NCBI GenBank assembly: GCA_963575745.1
Contig: CAUYUJ010016370.1
Coordinates: forward strand, 148,292 to 212,291
DNA: 64,000 bases
From: Prorocentrum cordatum
Lineage: Eukaryota; Sar; Dinophyceae; Prorocentrales; Prorocentraceae
Reading direction: 5' to 3'
Positions 12,966 through 22,130 of the stretch are shown piece after piece. Below the pieces are notes generated by a model. That model worked only from the letters and a program-made list of their open reading frames with translations, did not search any database and was not told where the DNA came from. How positions within the stretch are numbered: position 1 is the first letter of the stretch; every line of letters starts with the position of its first letter. The translations under genes and the position numbers were made by a program.

Positions 12966-13816
12966 AACAGGCTGACATTATGTGGCGTTACTTGTGGAAG
13001 GCCTTCGAGCAGCTGAGGCACCAGCACCTCATCAAGTCGCCGTGCAACACGACTTCCCAGTCTGGGCGGTGAAGCTTCAAGTCTCCCTTTACCGTAAGCC
13101 ACGGGCGCTGGAGCTCAACGGCGCGGTTTCGGACCTCATCGAAGTGCAGCAAATGGTCTTCGCAGGGGACATGTGGGCCACTTCTTTCATGAAGCTCATC
13201 GTCCTCAACCCGCTCGACCGCACCCTGCGGGCCTCGCCGAGCATCGTCCCGTCCGTCGTGGTCGACGACCTGGTCCTCCAGCGGGTTGGAGGCAGCAGGC
13301 GCGTGACCGACGACCTCGTCGCCAGTGTCACCAGCGTCGTCAGCGAGCTGCGCACGGTGGACATCCACGTCGCCACCAAGAAGTCTCTCCTGCTGGCCGA
13401 CGCGCCTACAGCGGCCGCGGCGTTCCAGAGCCGCCTGGCCTGGGCCGCCAAGGCGCGGCCAGTGGGAGCCGCCCGCAACCTTGGAGTGGACTACGCCCTG
13501 ACTGGACCGGCGCCCAGGCACGTCCGTCGGCACCGCCTCAATCAGGCCGCGCGGCGGGTCCCACGCCTCAGGCGGCTCTTGGGCCCAGTGCGCCGCCGCC
13601 ATGTCGCAGCAAGGATTTTCATGCAGGGGGTCGAGGCCAGCTTTGCCTACGGCGTCTGCTGCGCGGGGCTCGTTGACACCGACCTCGACACCGCGCGCAC
13701 GATGGCGTTCAGATCAGTCGAGATCAGGCCCTCTGGCAAGAGTCGCACCGCTGTCCTCGCCACCATCGGCAGGGACTACGACCCCGTGTTCAAGGTGACG
13801 CGCGACCCAGTGTGCA
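12966..13816 (+). pseudogene. LINE C, 5' part: reverse transcriptase fragment
   Basis: Fragment of a LINE reverse transcriptase cut off at its 5' side by a (GGA)n tract. Motif A region is LWKAFEQLRHQHLIK in one frame (about 12.98-13.04 kb). After a frameshift come FPVWAVKLQVSLYRKPRAL, VFAGDMWATSFMKL and the catalytic box SVVVDDLVLQRVGG (VDDL at 13261-13272; the usual Tyr/Phe and following residue are Val-Val). The frame continues through thumb sequence to FKVTRDPV at 13.81 kb, where LINE D is inserted. Its continuation is at 19980. Confidence 0.8.
13806..13816. repeat. Left target-site duplication of LINE D
   Basis: CCCAGTGTGCA, matched by CCCAGTGCGCA at 19980-19990 (10 of 11). Removing the intervening DNA joins LINE C codons ...DPV to TLRRAVWEQWLP in one frame. 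Confidence 0.85.
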
Positions 13817-13832
13817 GCCATTTCGGCTCGAG
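13816..13832 (+). other. Relic dinoflagellate spliced-leader sequence at the LINE D 5' end
   Basis: AGCCATTTCGGCTCGAG matches the last 17 nt of the dinoflagellate spliced leader (AGCCATTTTGGCTCAAG) at 15 of 17 positions and sits immediately after the target-site duplication. This is what is expected if a trans-spliced LINE RNA was reverse transcribed to its 5' end. The match is short; the position is the stronger argument. Confidence 0.7.
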
Positions 13833-13940
13833 CTGATTCAGGTGACAAGTTCCTCAGCCCGAGTTTGCACTAGCTGTCTTCGAAGTGGCGGCGCTAGTGC
13901 GGGCCAAAGTTGGCACAATTTCAGTCACTGACCTCCAGCG

Positions 13941-15029
13941 ATGTCAGGTGATGGTTCCGTATTGCGAGGCGCTCGATTGCTTTTCTGGTCTTGTACGCGG
14001 TGCACTCCTACCGCGAACTGGGCTTGCCGTATCCAATGCGCTTGTGGCGCTCCTGCTCCTGTGCGTGTGGCGCAGGCGGCGCGCAAGAGTGAGAAAGAGT
14101 ATTTGTCCCAGCCACGTACGAGTTCAGCGAAGCTTCCTGCAGGACAGCGGGCTAAGAGCCCAAGAGGGCAGGCCGACCTCATTTCTCGGATCTCGGCGGC
14201 GCTGGACAAAAAGTTCGATCAGAAAATCAAGCAAAATCAAGCAGGCACCCAAGGAGAAGGGCAGCGGTTCGTCGAATATCCCTCATGGTGGCCCTGCTGG
14301 TGCCAGCCAGTATGCACCCCTTCCGATGACGAGCTCAAGGCAGCCAGGATTAAGTCCTTGGAGAACGCCCTCGGCCAGCTCAAAGATGTCGATGGTTCGG
14401 GCCCCGCCAAGCAGCGCATCATTGAGCAGCTCCGAGTGGCACGCAAAGATATGCGTGACAAGAAGCCAGTTCTACAGCAGCACACCACGATCGCCTTCAT
14501 GCTCCAGGCCGCAGAGAAGAAGTTGTCGAAGGCCAAGGAGTCTGTGGAGGCACAACAAAAGGTTAACTTCGATGCTCAAACAGCTTTGGTTCTTCTGCAG
14601 GAAAAGAAAGCCTCTCTGCAGCGTGAGGTTGTTGCGCTTGGAGAAGAGTTGCGCCGAACCATGCCTGATGCGGGATGCCCCCCCGTGCACGACCTCCCCC
14701 TCGATCAACAGGTGCTCGATGCGCACCCAGAGGTCAAGGCGAGGGTGCAGAATCCTGCTTTCGAGCAGTTCAAGAAGCTGCATGAGGAAGCTACCAGGTC
14801 GCGGTCTCCTGTTGCCACGCCTCCTGCAGCGGAGCCAGCTGCAGCTCCTGAAGGTGATGGCGACTCAGCCATGGATGTGGATGGTCTCTCTGCCGAGGAT
14901 GCGGGCCGACTATTCGCGGCTACAGGCGGGCAGGGTGACAAGCGAGCTTTCGAGGCCAAGCTACAGGAGATGGGAGTCAAACGGCCTCGTCTTGCAGCAT
15001 CCCAAGATCCTGGCCAGCAGCCAGGGTAA
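13941..15029 (+). CDS. LINE D ORF1: RanBP2-like zinc finger, coiled coil
   Basis: Complete 362-residue frame. Residues about 14-38 have the RanBP2 zinc-finger layout (FWSCTRCTPTANWACRIQCACG: W-x-C-x2-C, N, C-x4-C-x-C). A basic Ser/Lys-rich stretch follows (EKEYLSQPRTSSAKL). From about residue 135 a long helical region (KAARIKSLENALGQLKD, QTALVLLQEKKASLQREV) predicts a coiled coil. The C-terminus holds EGDGDSAMDVDGLS and the basic VKRPRLA. By family it should be an RNA-binding nucleoprotein of the retrotransposon. Start chosen as the first ATG giving the whole finger; it lies about 110 bp after the relic leader. Same architecture as LINE A ORF1. Confidence 0.8.
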   Translation: MSGDGSVLRGARLLFWSCTRCTPTANWACRIQCACGAPAPVRVAQAARKSEKEYLSQPRTSSAKLPAGQRAKSPRGQADLISRISAALDKKFDQKIKQNQAGTQGEGQRFVEYPSWWPCWCQPVCTPSDDELKAARIKSLENALGQLKDVDGSGPAKQRIIEQLRVARKDMRDKKPVLQQHTTIAFMLQAAEKKLSKAKESVEAQQKVNFDAQTALVLLQEKKASLQREVVALGEELRRTMPDAGCPPVHDLPLDQQVLDAHPEVKARVQNPAFEQFKKLHEEATRSRSPVATPPAAEPAAAPEGDGDSAMDVDGLSAEDAGRLFAATGGQGDKRAFEAKLQEMGVKRPRLAASQDPGQQPG

Positions 15030-15047
15030 CTACCACCATGTTCGTCT

Positions 15048-16484
15048 ATGTGGCCTGCCTGTGTCTCCTCGAGGCCTGGCGGCGCCACAGCGCAAAGGCA
15101 TTGCAAGTTTTTGCGGCGCTCCAGAAGCGCCGCTCCCGCCCCCAAGTTTCTTCCGCACGCGGCGAGTTTTTTTTGTTTTTTTATACAAAAAAACGAGCCT
15201 TACCAGGATGCACCGAGAGATGGTGCAGCGAATGTTGTGCGGGATTCGGCTGATGGGCTTCAGTATTTTGAGTCGTTCAACGGCAATTGCAGATCGACGT
15301 TGCTGGATCGGCTCAAGACTTCCGACTCTCTGATTGCGTGTGCCCAAGAGATAGGCATTGCGATTGATGGCATCCCAGATCTCCAGCGTTCGGCGCGCAC
15401 ATTGGGATACCGAGTTTTGCGCAGCCCTTCGTTTGCACGACAGAGGGGATCTTCCCCTGAAGGTGCGGCTATCTTCGTCAAGCAGCACATCGGCATTCGT
15501 TGGAACCCAGATGGTGGAGAGTTGGTTAAGGGCCGCTTGATGTCAGTTAAAGTAGATATTCCTGGGTGGCCCGAGCTAACAGTATACTCGGCATAGATGT
15601 AGACGGCGGTGGGTCTTGATGCGGCTAATATGCACATCCTGAAAGCTCTAGGCAGTAACATTTTCAAGGTACATGGATCCACGCTGCGCGGTGCTGATTG
15701 GAATGTAGACGCCCAAGCTATCGAAGAGTCAGGTTTCGCGAGAAAGGCTGGGCTCATTGCAGTTGCCCCCACTAAACACACATGCATCATGCCGAGCACG
15801 GCCTCTACGATTGACTATTTCTTGTGCTCTCACGATATGGTTCGCTTGGTGGACAAGGCCAGAGTACTTCCGTCATGGCATGGCGGACCGCGCAAGCCTG
15901 TGCGACTCCACCTTCGCCCAGGAGTGCTGGCTCTTCGGCAGTTGGTATATTGTTCTCATGCTCGTTTGTCTGTGCTGCCACCGCGCGGTCCTCGCAGGCA
16001 ACCTAGGTCATATGTTGCGGCTCGAGCTCTGGCAGATCAAGCGGTTCACTCTGCCAAGTATGGTTCTGTTGGAAATGCACGGCGACAGCTCAGCCACGCT
16101 TGGGCGAGCTTTCTTCATGATGCTGATCTGGAAGTGTCAGATGTCCTGGACTTCCCGCTCAAGACGCCGGCACGATCACGGTGCCTTGTTAGACGCTGGG
16201 CACCCGTGTCGGGAAGAAAGTTCTCCACCGACGACCAGGTGCAGACATGCAGAGGACGGCAGTGGTTGTACCGAGTGTGGCATGAGTTCGGGGCATTGGT
16301 TAAGGAATCTCCGTGCTTGGCAACTAACCCTGGGACGCTCAGCCTGCATCAGGCTTGCATGACTGAAGAATATCCAGGTGAGGGGCTTGGCGTTCGATTG
16401 GATGCTCAGGCCAAGGCTTTTTTCAGGACCTTTTGCGTGCATAGCCTGATAAACATTACCACCCTTGGTATCGTATTTTGGTGA
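15048..16484 (+). pseudogene. LINE D ORF2, endonuclease part (two in-frame TAG)
   Basis: APE-type endonuclease: FNGNCRSTLLDRLK, then the catalytic Glu in LIACAQEIGIAIDGI, SPEGAAIFVKQHIGI, and ELTVYSA. Two TAG codons (15594 and 15600) interrupt the frame, which then continues unchanged with AVGLDAANMHILKALGS, GADWNVDAQAIEESGF (the GDxN motif), STIDYFLCSHDMV and RKPVRLHLRP. The remaining part to 16484 is the linker toward RT. Upstream of FNGN the frame includes a T-rich stretch (15166-15192) and may not be coding there. The frame shifts near 16.47 kb. Confidence 0.8.
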
Positions 16485-18418
16485 TCAGCTCGCTGTCGAA
16501 TTCGAAGCCTCAACCGCCTTGGTGAATAACTTACTTAACCAGTCTTGTAATGAGTGGTGTGATCAAGCACTCAAGGGCTCAGCTAAGATGATTCGTAATA
16601 TTACTCTACTTCAGAAGGTATGGCCACGTAGTGTTGTTGAACGTGCGCCAGGTATTTTCTCAAGCAGCCCTGGTGATGTTTTAGCGTCTGAGGCAGTCGC
16701 TCTTCAGATGCAATGGCAGGCCAGCTGCCAATCTCCTGTGGCAGAAGTTCCTGGTCGTGAATGTTTTCCTCGTGCTACTATCGAAGAGATTCGAAGTGCT
16801 GCAGGCAGGTTCAGCCAGCACACTTCATCGACTCTAGATGGTTCTCGCCCCAGGCACATAAGTTTGCTAGGCGATGCAGGCCTTGCTACTCTTGCTGTTT
16901 TGTATGAGGCAGTGGAGAGACTTGGGCTCCTCCCACGACATTTCATGTGGATGGTCTTCCCGCTGATCGACAAACCAGCTGGAGGACATCGCTCAATTTT
17001 GTTGCTGGCCAGTTTTGCGAGAGTGTGGGAGAGGCTTCGCCGACCGCAGCTAGGCCCCTTCTTCGAGGCTGCGCAGAGAGACTTCTGGGCCTTCGGAGCT
17101 GGCAAGAGCGCTGAATCTTGCGCATGGGCCCAGTCAGTTCTTTCGGAGGGCGCCCGCGTCAAACGATCAGGTTATCTTGGGGGTCCAATGGGATGGTAAG
17201 AAGTATTATGAGTCGTTCCAACTCGATCTATTGCGGGAGCGGGCGTGCAAGCACGGTATTCCTAAAGTCATCGTGAAGACTATGTATAACTTGTGGCGTT
17301 GCCCTAGATTGGTCAGACTGGGTTCTGCCTTTCACCCAGTGGCGTATTTCGCGTGCAGCGGATTACCAGCGGGCGACATTCTTAACGATGCATTTGTCAG
17401 GACGTATGCTTTGGAGTCCTTTGATGCTTTCACGAGTAGACACCCAAATATAAGGCTCTCATCATACATAGACGATGATATGGTATTGGCAGTAGGCAGT
17501 ACGAGCAACTTACTACGTGACGACCCTGAAGCAGCAGCAGATTCCCATATAATGTTCAAGCTCGAGCTTAAAGCGTATATATCGAATAGCAAGGCAATCG
17601 CTGTCGCGAGCTCACAGTCGCTAGCTCGGCCGTTCGCACATCAGCGTTATGTTGGGTGTCTCCCGAAAGGTACGGCTACATCGACGTCGCCCAATCTTGG
17701 GGTGGATTTGTCTCCTGGGCAACGCCGTTCGGCTAAAGGTGCGCTTCGAAAACGTCGGCAAAGGTTTCAGCCGTTTAACCGTCGTCCTCTTCGGGCCCTT
17801 CGGTACCGAAAGAAACTGCCGCACGGCAAGCATCGGATGGCGATAATTCACACTGCTGGGTTGAAGCCATTATCTTATGGCAGTGCAATTCTCGGAATAA
17901 GTGACTACGAGCTCAAGCGGGCTCGAGCTACATTGCTCAGTTTCAAGTCACCCTCCCATCGAGGGGCCTCGCTCGTGGCCAAGTGTGTGCTCCATGGCGA
18001 CCCCGTGACAGATGCGGCTGTTGCTCCTGCTGTGCAGTGGGCTATTGCAGTCTGGCAATCGGCGGTCGCACCCGAGCGCGCCCTCTTTACGATCGACGAG
18101 CTCACGCACATGTATGACACGATTTCTTCTAAGTATGTTCCAGGGCAAACATGGGGACAGTCCGGGGGCCCAATTTCCAGGATGATGCTGAGTTTGAGAC
18201 GTATAGGATGGGAAGTACAGAATGTTACGGAGTGGGTGGATGATCGTGGCATCGAGTACTCGCTCCTGTACACATCACAATCTCTCATCAAGCACCTCCT
18301 GTGTCAGGCAGTACAGCGCGCTCATGAGCGTACAATGGCTAGCTTAGTAGGTTCACCTGCACATGAGAATGGTAGTCAGGCACGTGTGTGTAGATATTGT
18401 ACGCACCATTGCATGTAG
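16465..18418 (+). pseudogene. LINE D ORF2, reverse transcriptase
   Basis: Two overlapping frames (16465-17199 and 17177-18418) together make a full RT. Fingers: FPRATIEEIRSAAGRFS, TLDGSRPRHISLLGD, PRHFMWMVFPLIDKPAG. Motif A: GVQWDGKKYYESFQLDLL. Motif B region: FACSGLPAGDILNDAFV. Catalytic box: SSYIDDDMVLAVGS (17465-17479). The post-RT part has MMLSLRRIGWEVQNVTEWV and RVCRYCTHHCM. Only the junction near 17.18 kb breaks the frame. It would copy element RNA from the nicked target DNA. Confidence 0.85.
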
Positions 18419-18533
18419 ATTTAAGAAGTTTAGTGCACGCCAAAAGTATGCTATCACAAGTTGTTTTACCAAGGCAGTTTTCACGAATGATCGCCTCCGC
18501 GCGCTATGACATGAGTCTGATGGCCTTTGTCCT

Positions 18534-19941
18534 TTGTGCGCACAGCTGGACAGCCTGCACCATAGGCTGTGGCGCTGTCGAGCTCAGGAGTGCGTGGGGG
18601 CCCGAGAGGCGGCGGCTAGCGTGGAGATAATCGCGGAGGGCGCTCAGGCAGGGCGTGAAGATTTATTTTGGACTCGCTTCATGTTCCTGCATCCTGCGTG
18701 CTATGTTGCCCCTCCTACCGACCAGCTGTATCCCGCAATGCAGACTGCGAATGTCGAGCCTCTCGTCGACTACTCGATCTGGAGTGCTGCGTCGGATGTC
18801 GTTGTCGACGGTTCGTGTGCTCGGAGTCCGGTTCGAGAGTTGTCGAGGGCCGCCTACGCAGGAGTTTTTCTGACCGAAGGGTCAGAGGAAGTCATGGCTA
18901 GGTTTAAGGGCCCTGCGTGGCCGTCGCTACCCCAGACTCCTCAGGCTGCGGAGCAGATGGCTATCATTGCTCCCGCTTTTTACAGTGCGTGTGCATGTAC
19001 AGACGCATTCGGACTGCCTAGGAGTTGTCAGGATCCACAATCAAAGTTCGGCCCAAGTGCTGGCTGGGCGATCGAAGTACGCTGGCTTGAGGAGGGGATT
19101 TTATGAGCCCGAAGGCGCGGAGTTTGTAGGACTGGCACATCACACACCAGCGCACAGAAGTTCTGAAGTTATCGACTCGCTCCCGCCAGCAGAACGTAGA
19201 ACAGCACGTGCGAATGACATGGCCGATCGGCTCGCTAAGCACGCTCTGGAAATGCTCGCACGGGAGAGCCCAGGGGACCTTGAGCAGCTTGATGCCCTGT
19301 TGGGCAAGGCCCGTGCCGTGGCCCGCGTGGTTGGGCGCGTTCTTCCGCTGTTCCCGTTTTCCCAGTGTCCTGAGAGACCCAAGGCCCCCAGGCCCTGTGA
19401 GGTAGGCGCGAGGGGATGGCACGCCTGGACAGCAGTACCTGGTGCAGCAGGCTCCTTCATCTGTCATGATTGTCATGCGCGTGTCAAAGGAACGTGCGCG
19501 GAAAAGCTTGACATGTCTGGTTGCCCTGGACGGCGGGGTAATTACGGACCATCAAAAGCTAGAACACTCGCTGGTCTTTGCGAGACTGTCGAGCGGCCCG
19601 AGTTTGATTTTTGCAGACGCTGTGGTGCATGCAGCACGGAACTGCTCAGTCGCAAGGTGGAGCAGGTCTGTGTTGGTCGGACTTGCTCTGCTACTGCGAA
19701 GTGCAGGCTCGGACGGATGATGCGGGGCCTTCGACCGCGATCCGACCGAGCACCAGGTGTTGTGCTCCATATCTTAAGTGATGTGGACCGACTGCGGCTG
19801 CTCCAGACCCAGCAGCTGCCCCGTCGTGCTGTCTTCCTCTCCCACCCTCGGGGGGGCGCCCCTGATGGGGGACTGCCCCCAGGGCTGGAGGCCATTCGAG
19901 CGAGAGCGGCCGCGAGGGAGCAGGCGAACTCCGGTGGTTAA
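18534..19941 (+). pseudogene. LINE D ORF2, RNase H and Cys-rich C-terminus
   Basis: Frame 18534-19106 gives the first RNase H strand SDVVVDGSCARSPV (Asp) and PQAAEQMAIIAPAFYS (Glu). Frame 18967-19941 gives THSDCLGVVRIHNQSS (Asp) and RANDMADRLAKHALEM (last Asp). It then has two Cys clusters, ICHDCHARVKGTCAEK and FDFCRRCGACSTELL ... VCVGRTCSATAKC, with C-x2-CG spacing shared with other LINEs here. Ends with a stop 28 bp before the A-run. Frameshift near 18.97-19.1 kb. Confidence 0.8.
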
Positions 19942-19968
19942 GCGATTAATGTTCTACCCCTTGCGGGC

Positions 19969-19990
19969 AAAAAAAAATACCCAGTGCGCA
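19969..19990 (+). repeat. LINE D A9 tail and right target-site duplication
   Basis: AAAAAAAAATA followed by CCCAGTGCGCA, the partner of 13806-13816. Confidence 0.85.
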
Positions 19991-22130
19991 CGCTGCGCAG
20001 GGCCGTCTGGGAGCAGTGGCTCCCCAGGCAGGCCCTGGAGAAGGCCTTCGCGGCGGCCCTGGCCGCGTCGGGCAGCTGGGCCGGCTGCCGCGGCCCCGTG
20101 GAGGCCGCCCCCTTGTCCGTGTGCCGCGTGGGCTGGGAGGCGGCCTCGCTAGATGCATGGGCCACGCGCGACGGCTTTCACCGCAGCGTCAGCGACGCCA
20201 GCCGGTGGCTCACCAAGAAGCTGCTCAGCCGCAGCTGCGAGCACTGGCAGGCCAAGCAGCTCAGCAAGCACGGCGCCCCCTGGCTTGATGTCGGCATCAA
20301 CTTCGGCCAGCTGCGGCGGTGGACGGCCGGCGGCCGTGGTGCCTCCCACGAAGCACGGAGCTGGCCCAGCCTCAGCAGCGAGCAGCGCGGCTACCTCAGG
20401 TCCTGCATCGTCGACGGCCAGTGGACCAACACCAGGAAGCACGGCAACAATCCGAGGTGCGCCCCCTTCGGACACTGGCGAGCTCTGCCCCAACCACGCC
20501 AGAGACCTCTGGCACAGGCACCTCTGCTGCAGCGCCATCCAGGACCGCGGCCTCAGCCTCCCGAGGGAGATCGCCCTGCTGCTGCCGCAGAAGGACAACG
20601 CGGTTGTCAGGTGCCCTGTCGAGCGCGTCCTCCTTCCAGCTCAGCAGCTCCAGTGGAGGCCTCCCAGCGGCGGTTTCCTCGACCACCTCCGCTGGTGTAG
20701 CGGTGAGCCAGGCGAGCCTTTCGTCGGCCAGCCACTGCGCTGCGACTGCTCACTGTGCGACGCGCTGCTGGCCGAGGGTCGTGGTGCGCAGGCCGCGGCA
20801 GCGGTCGTCGAGCTTCCTCCAGGCCCCGAGGAGGTCGACCCAGACACTGGGCGCGCCTCTAGTTGGACCCTGGCAGAGTATCGAGGGCGCGGAGCTGCTG
20901 GCGGCGCTCATCGTCCAGCGGCGCGCCATCCCGCCCATCGGGCTTCACTGCGACGCCAGCTTCGTCGTCGACGGCATCAACCTTCGGGGCGAGGCCCGCG
21001 CGACGCTGGCGTCCCAAGAGCGGGGGCATCTCTGGCGGCAGGTTTGGCAGGCGCTTCACGACTTCGGCGGCGTTGGCCCAGCGGGGCTCACGATCGTGAA
21101 GATCAAGGGCCACGCCACCGCCGCCCGCGTCTCCCGCGGCGCCGTCACGCGGAAGCAGCGCCGTGGCAACTACGAGGCCGACCACGTCGCAGGAGGGATC
21201 GCCCACCACCTGCGCGCCCCCCTCGGCCGAGAGTCTGAGGCAGCTGCGTGCCCAGCTCTTCGTCGACGGCGTCGCGCACTGGGTGGCCGCGGCCGGCGCT
21301 CCAGCGGCCGCCGACAGGCTCGACGGCATTCGCGGCTGCGTGGCCCGCGACGAGGCCAACAAGGACCGCCCCCCCTCTCGCCGAGCACGCGTTCGGCACG
21401 CTCGGCTCGGGCCCCTGGCACTGCGCGGCGTGCCTGCGCGCGGCGCGGACCACGAGGTCGAAGCAGGGGATGCGTCGGTCCCCGCGCGTTCCCAAGATCG
21501 CCTCAGTGGCCGGGAAATGGAAGGCAGCGCCGTCCAGCGCGGCAGCAGGCGTGGCCATCGCGGCGGCGGCGGCGGCAGCCGCGGCAGCCGCCGACGGCGC
21601 CGACAGCCAACCAGGAGTGCTCGGGTCTGGTCGGGGCCAGGACCCCACGCCGAGTGCGGCGGGGCAGGGGCCCGCGACCGCGGGCGAGGTTGGCTCGGCC
21701 CGCGGCCAGGGCCCAGCGTCGAGCTCGGGGGGCCGGCCGCCTGACCCAGCGGGAGCCGCTGCGGCCCACGACGCCGCCGCGGCCAGCGGCCTGGTCGGAG
21801 CCACGACCCCCCGCGGGTGGACCTTGGAGGCAGCTGCGAGGTCCCGACCCCCGCGCCGCCGCCGCCAGCGCCCCCGCCGTCGGCGGGCCCAGCGGTGCCT
21901 GCGGGGGGCGGGGCCGACGCCGAGGAGGACCCGCCGCGGGCGCGCGACGCCCTCGGCCACATCGTGCAGCGTGCATTCGGCCACGCGCCGTGCGCGAGGT
22001 GCCACGCCTGCGCCAGGGAACGCCTCTGCAGCATCAAAGCTTTAGCGGCTCAGTGCGCCCCGCACGTGGGCGAGGCTGGGCGCGTCCGACGTCTTCGGGC
22101 TGACCGCATTGGGCGGGGTCAGCACCCCAC
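19980..22130 (+). pseudogene. LINE C, 3' part: post-RT, RNase H, Cys-rich C-terminus
   Basis: Continuation of the fragment ending at 13816. In order: PVRTLRRAVWEQWLPRQALE; CIVDGQWTNTRKHGNNPRC; DLWHRHLCCSAIQDRGL in a shifted frame (20.5 kb); RNase H elements CDASFVVDGINL, AGLTIVKIKGHATAARV and RRGNYEADHVAGGIAHH (20.9-21.2 kb); GPWHCAACLRAARTTRSK (21.42 kb); and PCARCHACARERLCSIKAL ... GRGQHPTS (21.99-22.13 kb), the conserved C-terminal Cys segment. An Ala/Arg/Pro-rich low-complexity stretch fills 21.5-21.9 kb. Several frameshifts; not functional. Confidence 0.8.

Follow-up and report, generated by a model that had tools for sequence, protein, structure and literature searches.

The 64,000-nucleotide stretch of the Prorocentrum cordatum genome analysed here (the window; contig CAUYUJ010016370.1, positions 148,292 to 212,291 of the forward strand) contains a long interspersed nuclear element, LINE D, whose 5' end resembles the spliced leader (SL, hereafter the leader) that dinoflagellates join to their mRNAs by trans-splicing. 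Its features are collected in the table below; loci from our searches are labelled L001-L145. An 11-bp duplication brackets the element (CCCAGTGTGCA at 13806-13816 and CCCAGTGCGCA at 19980-19990; counting the A at 13805 and at 19979 extends it to 12 bp with one mismatch), an A9 run lies at its 3' end, and the leader-like sequence follows the left duplication directly, all as the initial annotation had placed them. The first A of AGCCATTTCGGCTCGAG doubles as the last base of that duplication. On the plus strand upstream, the right 12-mer has a single match at ≤1 mismatch, which is the left copy. The nesting of LINE D within a second element, LINE C, was also borne out. When the flanks are joined at the duplication they form one open frame of 514 aa, which LINE D interrupts in frame. 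Because that frame can be aligned across the junction (residue 278, inside the aligned block 212-347) with L047, another LINE of this genome, at ∼30% identity, the nesting is shown independently of the duplication.

Features of LINE D and its insertion site in the window
Feature	Position	Strand	Remarks
LINE C frame, left part, broken by LINE D	12982..13816	+	alignment of the joined frame to L047 spans the junction
Left target-site duplication	13805..13816	+	ACCCAGTGTGCA, last A common to the element; 11/12 against 19979-19990
Inherited leader-like 5' terminus	13816..13832	+	AGCCATTTCGGCTCGAG; 15/17 against the leader core; identical in L066-L069 and L072
Conserved pseudoknot	13816..13900	+	helices A 13817-13825/13881-13889, B 13827-13835/13855-13863, C 13867-13874/13893-13900
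LINE D open reading frame (ORF) 1	13941..15029	+	362 aa, open, coiled-coil-like by eye; 28.6% identity over 255 aa to the post-leader region of L062
LINE D endonuclease-region frames, broken	15030..16481	+	assigned by place and tblastn to L062 2043-2944; frame 15609-16484 without Pfam match
LINE D reverse-transcriptase region, frameshifted	16453..18415	+	YIDDDM near 17465; two frames without Pfam match
LINE D C-terminal frames	18510..19941	+	frame 18967-19941 without Pfam match
A9 run at 3' end	19969..19977	+	TA next
Right target-site duplication	19979..19990	+	ACCCAGTGCGCA; pairs with left copy
LINE C frame, right part	19991..21240	+	end as joined in the analysis; same alignment to L047

In the window, AGCCATTTCGGCTCGAG is the sole match to the leader sequence AGCCATTTTGGCTCAAG at up to three mismatches, where shuffling expects 0.15 and 15 of 100 shuffles had one. 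No further match lies within four mismatches of the 17-mer, and hence no other LINE of the window shows a leader. The hallmark of relic-leader genes, a leader remnant at the 5' junction, is thus present in LINE D and, as a perfect 22 nt, in its relatives L099 and L101. We also considered a second, more decayed relic directly after the leader, at 13833, and found it unconvincing (P 0.04; 7.6% of the positions of the element score as high). In the same relic scan a stretch at 13859 outscored 13833.

Copies elsewhere in the assembly (4,128,499,153 bases in 21,875 contigs) indicate where this terminus comes from. The query consisted of the 400 nt 3' of the leader-like end, with the leader left out, and gave at least 38 matches. 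The window and 34 fetched 5' ends, 35 in all, were examined, three weak matches lying outside this set. Leader-like sequence stands at the junction in 27 of the 35: 24 have an inherited end (eight of the same type as LINE D, 16 of a sister type) and three a new leader. The four close copies L066-L069 (89-94% identity to the query) all start with AGCCATTTCGGCTCGAG, 17/17, in unrelated flanks, and so does L072 (76% identity), while L074 has 16 and L075 13 of these bases. Over the next 100 nt the agreement with LINE D falls to 70 in L072, 71 in L074 and 58 in L075. The shared departures from the canonical leader are C at base 9 and G at base 15; copies that keep both differ by 3-10% in the following 100 nt, L072 by 30%. 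Because the close copies carry the same two departures, the end of LINE D was inherited and not freshly trans-spliced.

The junctions are exact. The 3' end was sought in seven D-type copies and found in four (LINE D, L066, L067 and L069), each having a target-site duplication together with an A-rich 3' end. In these four the duplication (11/12 in LINE D, 9/9 in L067, 11/12 in L069, and 11/12 in L066, where the next AG is common to both sides) stops exactly before the A of AGCC or with it. The terminal A belongs to the element, since in L067 and L069 a G follows the right copy. Among the D-type copies we saw no conserved sequence upstream of this point.

A sister subfamily reveals both the inherited end and its occasional renewal. 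Its 16 loci, among which L081 and L083 are one duplicated locus, begin with AGCCGTTCTGGCTCAGR or near variants. Three further loci have a new leader, attached at an AG of the old one. L099 reads TCCGTAGCCATTTTGGCTCAAG followed by GTGATTCC, whereas its nearest sibling with an inherited end, L092, reads AGCCGTTCTGGCTCAG followed by GTGATTCC; from the base after the leader the two are 97.6% identical over 205 nt. Splicing at the final AG of the old terminus therefore replaced that terminus in L099. In L101 a full leader precedes CCGTTCTGGCTCAG, which corresponds to splicing at an inner AG, with the new leader ahead of the old one. L094 represents the same kind of event, mutated since; L094 and L101 are 96.2% and 92.9% identical to L103. 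Judged by these comparisons, L099, L094 and L101 represent recent, independent leader additions. On its 3' side L099 has D-like sequence and then A13 at a distance of ∼6.4 kb from the leader; a 10-bp repeat (CTGCTCCTCC) abuts the leader. The flank is TCC-rich and the repeat shares a TCC with the leader, which leaves the leader's first bases ambiguous and gives this duplication less weight than the others.

Two cases came from a separate sample of 67 leader sites, drawn from 100 listed of 23,552: L143, where a leader is followed by a 15-nt relic and then CCGTTCTGGCCCAGG, which amounts to two successive additions, and L063, where a leader is joined to an old terminus (CCGTTCTG). Signs of trans-splicing in the very cycle that produced the copy are accordingly found in L099, L101 and L143, and not in LINE D and its close copies.

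The inherited terminus takes part in a conserved RNA pseudoknot as one of its strands. Its bases 2-10 form a helix with sequence ∼35 nt (sister type) to 55 nt (D type) downstream, a hairpin begins at base 11 or 12, and a third helix crosses the first, giving the order A, B, B', C, A', C'. Of the 325 cells of the sister alignment (15 rows, 13 of them distinct), 95.4% are paired, against 35-39% in slid controls; three pairs changed on both sides, and the covariation score was reached by none of 500 shuffles. The D alignment (8 rows) has 95.2% of 208 cells paired, against 27-42%, and two pairs changed on both sides. Compared by hand, the two types differ on both sides at pairs 5, 8 and 9 of helix A. 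A covariance model built from the sister sequences (helices A and B only) finds 13816-13916 of the window with an E-value of 4.4e-5 in 312,440 bases. At L141, a further locus of the 67-site sample, a leader stands directly before a related fold (model E 8e-4). A second 5' end of the pseudoknot type, AGCCGTTCCGACTCCGG, was seen at position 6661 of L063 (model E 0.005), 18 nt beyond the first LINE's right target repeat at that locus. A ribozyme like that of hepatitis delta virus (HDV) at the 5' end of LINE D was rejected, as the helix order differs from that of HDV, and a search of 12 loci against Rfam with E up to 5 gave seven matches, all below the family thresholds and none to a ribozyme.

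Taken together, the inherited end, the exact junctions, the pseudoknot and the sporadic new leaders at two different AGs favor an old leader capture that has become an inherited, structured 5' end and is occasionally re-spliced, and we regard this as the probable history of the family. According to this hypothesis, an ancestral LINE of the endonuclease/reverse transcriptase (RT) type would have acquired the dinoflagellate leader by trans-splicing and been retroposed together with it. Thereafter the core of that leader (AGCC.TT..GGCTC) would have been kept as the element's own 5' terminus and passed from copy to copy, drifting slowly in two clades while serving as the 5' strand of the pseudoknot. 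The copied RNA would start exactly at the first A, and this exact, non-spliced end may result either from cleavage of the RNA or from a defined start site. AG acceptors persist in the captured leader, so that RNA of the family could occasionally be trans-spliced again, at the inner AG with a new leader placed ahead of the old, or at the end AG with the old leader replaced, and such RNAs would also be retroposed up to the leader.

The initial annotation had proposed that the LINE RNA was trans-spliced and copied to its very 5' end, so that trans-splicing supplies the terminus, and had asked whether the leader is added anew in each cycle. Our results support that proposal in part. L099, L101, L143 and L063 bear out the first part, in that trans-splicing of LINE RNAs and their copying together with the leader do take place in this genome, but it fails for the last cycle of LINE D itself, whose diverged 17-mer is shared by all four close copies and L072. 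The terminus does mark where the element truly begins, and a leader is its simplest source, yet LINE D received it by inheritance; renewal occurs sometimes, in the sister subfamily. A more far-reaching idea, which we put forward tentatively and consider rather doubtful, is that the captured leader forms the 5' strand of a new kind of pseudoknot that fixes the 5' end of the LINE RNA inside long host transcripts, through self-cleavage, an exonuclease stop or the setting of a start site. One family would then alternate between its own structure and host trans-splicing at AGs within that same structure.

However, these conclusions should be interpreted with some caution, as several observations weigh against an old capture. 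The leader origin is argued from 15/17 bases in LINE D and 12-14/17 in the sister type, with only 12/17 in L075, L085, L102 and L104. The family is known here from genomic copies. Eight of the 35 matches examined (L070 and L071, an identical duplicated pair, and L073, L077, L080, L084, L096 and L100) are without a leader-like end and are perhaps 5' truncated, and a D-like 3' end was not found in the stretches fetched for L068, L072 and L074. As for the pseudoknot, the number of pairs changed on both sides did not exceed chance by shuffling (equalled in 335/500 for the sister and 21/500 for the D alignment), and helix A is nearly invariant in the sister type, where six of nine pairs never vary and none varies on both sides. 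Moreover, most loci with a perfect leader show no partner strand for it, and the fold therefore belongs to the LINE D family and not to leader-bearing LINEs generally. Among 28 leader loci tested for a helix-A partner, low shuffle P values were obtained only for L060 (0.010) and L063 (0.020), uncorrected for 28 tests, and the partner scored in L063 differs from the one assigned by eye.

Part of this evidence would suit the opposite order of events, in which a structured 5' end came first and resembles the leader by chance or through selection for mimicry, without any capture. The 17-mer is a paired strand, and the two-sided differences between the types at pairs 5, 8 and 9 give its sequence a reason of its own; the scarcity of helix-A partners at perfect-leader loci points the same way. 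On the other hand, agreement in 15 of 17 bases exactly at the terminus has, by arithmetic, a probability of ∼1e-7 at one fixed place. Leader positions lost in one type are kept in the other, so that the exact leader core fits as their ancestor, and a distant LINE relative, L062 (42% RT identity), is headed by a perfect 22-nt leader. We consider a structure-first origin unlikely.

Leaders are abundant in this genome, as expected for a dinoflagellate rich in leader relics: the core AGCCATTTYGGCTC occurs 11,831 + 11,721 times, against 7 + 8 for a reversed control pattern. From the listing we hand-picked 20 leader sites with 10 kb each before their content was known, and in eight of them LINE coding sequence lies downstream in the same orientation. 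Five of these were recognized by Pfam (L047 and L050 below the curated cutoffs, L051, L058 and L060 above them; the Pfam set comprised 10 ORFs of 9 loci) and L062, L063 and L065 by tblastn only, L065 weakly. The other 12 comprise one WD40 retrogene (L059) and 11 sites without assignment. In the 67-site sample CCGT precedes AGCC in 52, placing these within one base of the leader 5' end, and some of the other 15 (such as L060 and L117) have an extra leader copy just upstream.

An alternative is that each cycle adds the leader afresh by trans-splicing, the cycle behind LINE D included. The new leaders on L099, L101, L094, L143 and L063 agree with this, as does the finding that in nine groups (26 loci) the leader bases outside the search core differ in only 8/182, while divergence between the aligned bodies, often over short blocks, is mostly 4-22%. 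Yet these loci were chosen by a perfect 14-base core, so that the 8/182 suggests renewal or constraint without separating the two, and the leader followed by CCATTTCGG, the product of splicing at the inner AG, occurs in none of the eight D-type copies. For the D type, the two departures common to the four close copies refute addition in every cycle, and as an account of the LINE D terminus we hold it to be very improbable. Inheritance is not confined to the D family either, because leader variants are shared by L119 and L132 and by L056 and L136, the latter with like flanks. That a variant SL RNA with both changes was trans-spliced onto these LINEs is barely credible, since the sister subfamily carries other changes, the C appears in only one of the 100 AGCCATTTYGGCTC sites listed (of 23,552), and the new leaders of L099 and L101 are canonical.

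By homology LINE D appears to be a LINE of the endonuclease/RT type. Its second ORF is frameshifted. In tblastn its frames match along L062 in order (ORF1, endonuclease and RT regions; RT 42% over 245 aa), and the RT frame also matches L047. The ORFs of L047 in turn match Pfam models for RT, endonuclease and RNase H (E 1e-6 to 7e-4), each under its curated cutoff (RVT_1 28.9 bits against 29.6, endonuclease 22.4 against 24.5); other leader-headed LINEs exceed the cutoffs, L051 for RVT_1 and L058 for RVT_1 and endonuclease. No Pfam domain was found in the five LINE D frames submitted (frames 15030-15593 and 18510-19103 were outside this set). Protein searches, with ∼8,000 candidates scored for both queries, returned one relative of the RT frame, labelled Pyramimonas in EukProt (70% identity, covering 44% of the query), and none of ORF1. 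The RT protein had no match among viral contigs; 37 viral contigs contain the 15-base leader core, one (L001) with two matches, and by a rough estimate chance could give as many.

Several side observations concern other leader-headed insertions. L058 has a 2580-aa open frame from ∼22 nt after the A of AGCC, with endonuclease and RT together, and is thus a one-ORF LINE as against the two-ORF LINE D. The WD40 retrogene L059 has a leader, an exact 17-bp repeat (AAGTCCCCCAAGAGGCC, its last three bases in the leader start) and an A-rich 3' end ∼1.3 kb away, and is a host retrogene with LINE-type hallmarks. Leader-headed insertions (L038-L065, L106-L145) often lie in (TCC)n or (GGA)n microsatellites: in counts without a background control, 25 of the 67 upstream 30-nt flanks are TCC-rich and 10 GGA-rich. 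This bias could reflect microhomology with the leader's first bases, TCC, or a target preference of the endonuclease. About 25 nt past the leader, L038, L045, L061, L115, L127 and L128, otherwise diverged, have in common a short block like GGATACCGCTAGTCCGCGGC, possibly a second type of structured 5' untranslated region. In L040 the first 47 nt after the leader are 91-94% identical to L062 and L145, with no more L040 match beyond, which marks a conserved 5' block.

LINEs that end in leaders and have target duplications and A tails, together with L059, point to target-primed reverse transcription of the LINE type. An earlier report describes the machinery that rewrites dinoflagellate mRNAs into the genome as unknown and favors long terminal repeat/copia elements (PMC6050394). 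The finding ties this kind of LINE to the RNA-tagging machinery of the cell and, given a leader origin, would present a host splicing tag domesticated as the end of a selfish element; it also provides insertions that can be counted and used to compare inherited with renewed ends.

In the accessible text of the open-licence literature on retrogene relics, Hydra transposons and LINE-adjacent leaders, we found no LINE with a captured leader as its own 5' terminus. Related systems, as that text describes them, share some of these features. In Hydra, transposon transcripts carry trans-spliced leaders (∼30% of transposable-element Iso-Seq reads; PMC12220107), so that transposon RNA likewise uses host leader splicing; there the evidence is transcripts, whereas here genomic insertions retain the leader. 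RNA-virus insertions with leaders near LINEs in dinoflagellates led to a proposal of LINE-mediated retroposition of leader-bearing RNA (PMC10235124), which rests on the proximity of LINEs, while here the termini and duplications of the LINE itself carry the evidence. The R2 and trypanosomatid L1Tc/ingi LINEs possess a 5' HDV-like ribozyme (PMC3774820, PMC4035085) and resemble LINE D in that a structured RNA lies precisely at the 5' terminus and the 5' junction is exact; LINE D differs in its helix order and in the lack of a ribozyme match in Rfam, its 5' strand is probably leader-derived, and its fold is known here from sequence. A further parallel is offered by the relic-leader retrogenes of dinoflagellates, in which the leader is copied into DNA at the 5' end and 15-nt tandem relics occur (PMC6050394, PMC12014239, PMC3229502), the same products of inner-AG splicing that we see in L101 and L143. 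Unlike in those retrogenes, the LINE itself bears the leader here, in the form of a structured relic passed on by inheritance, and the relic can be replaced wholly through a second acceptor at its end, as in L099.

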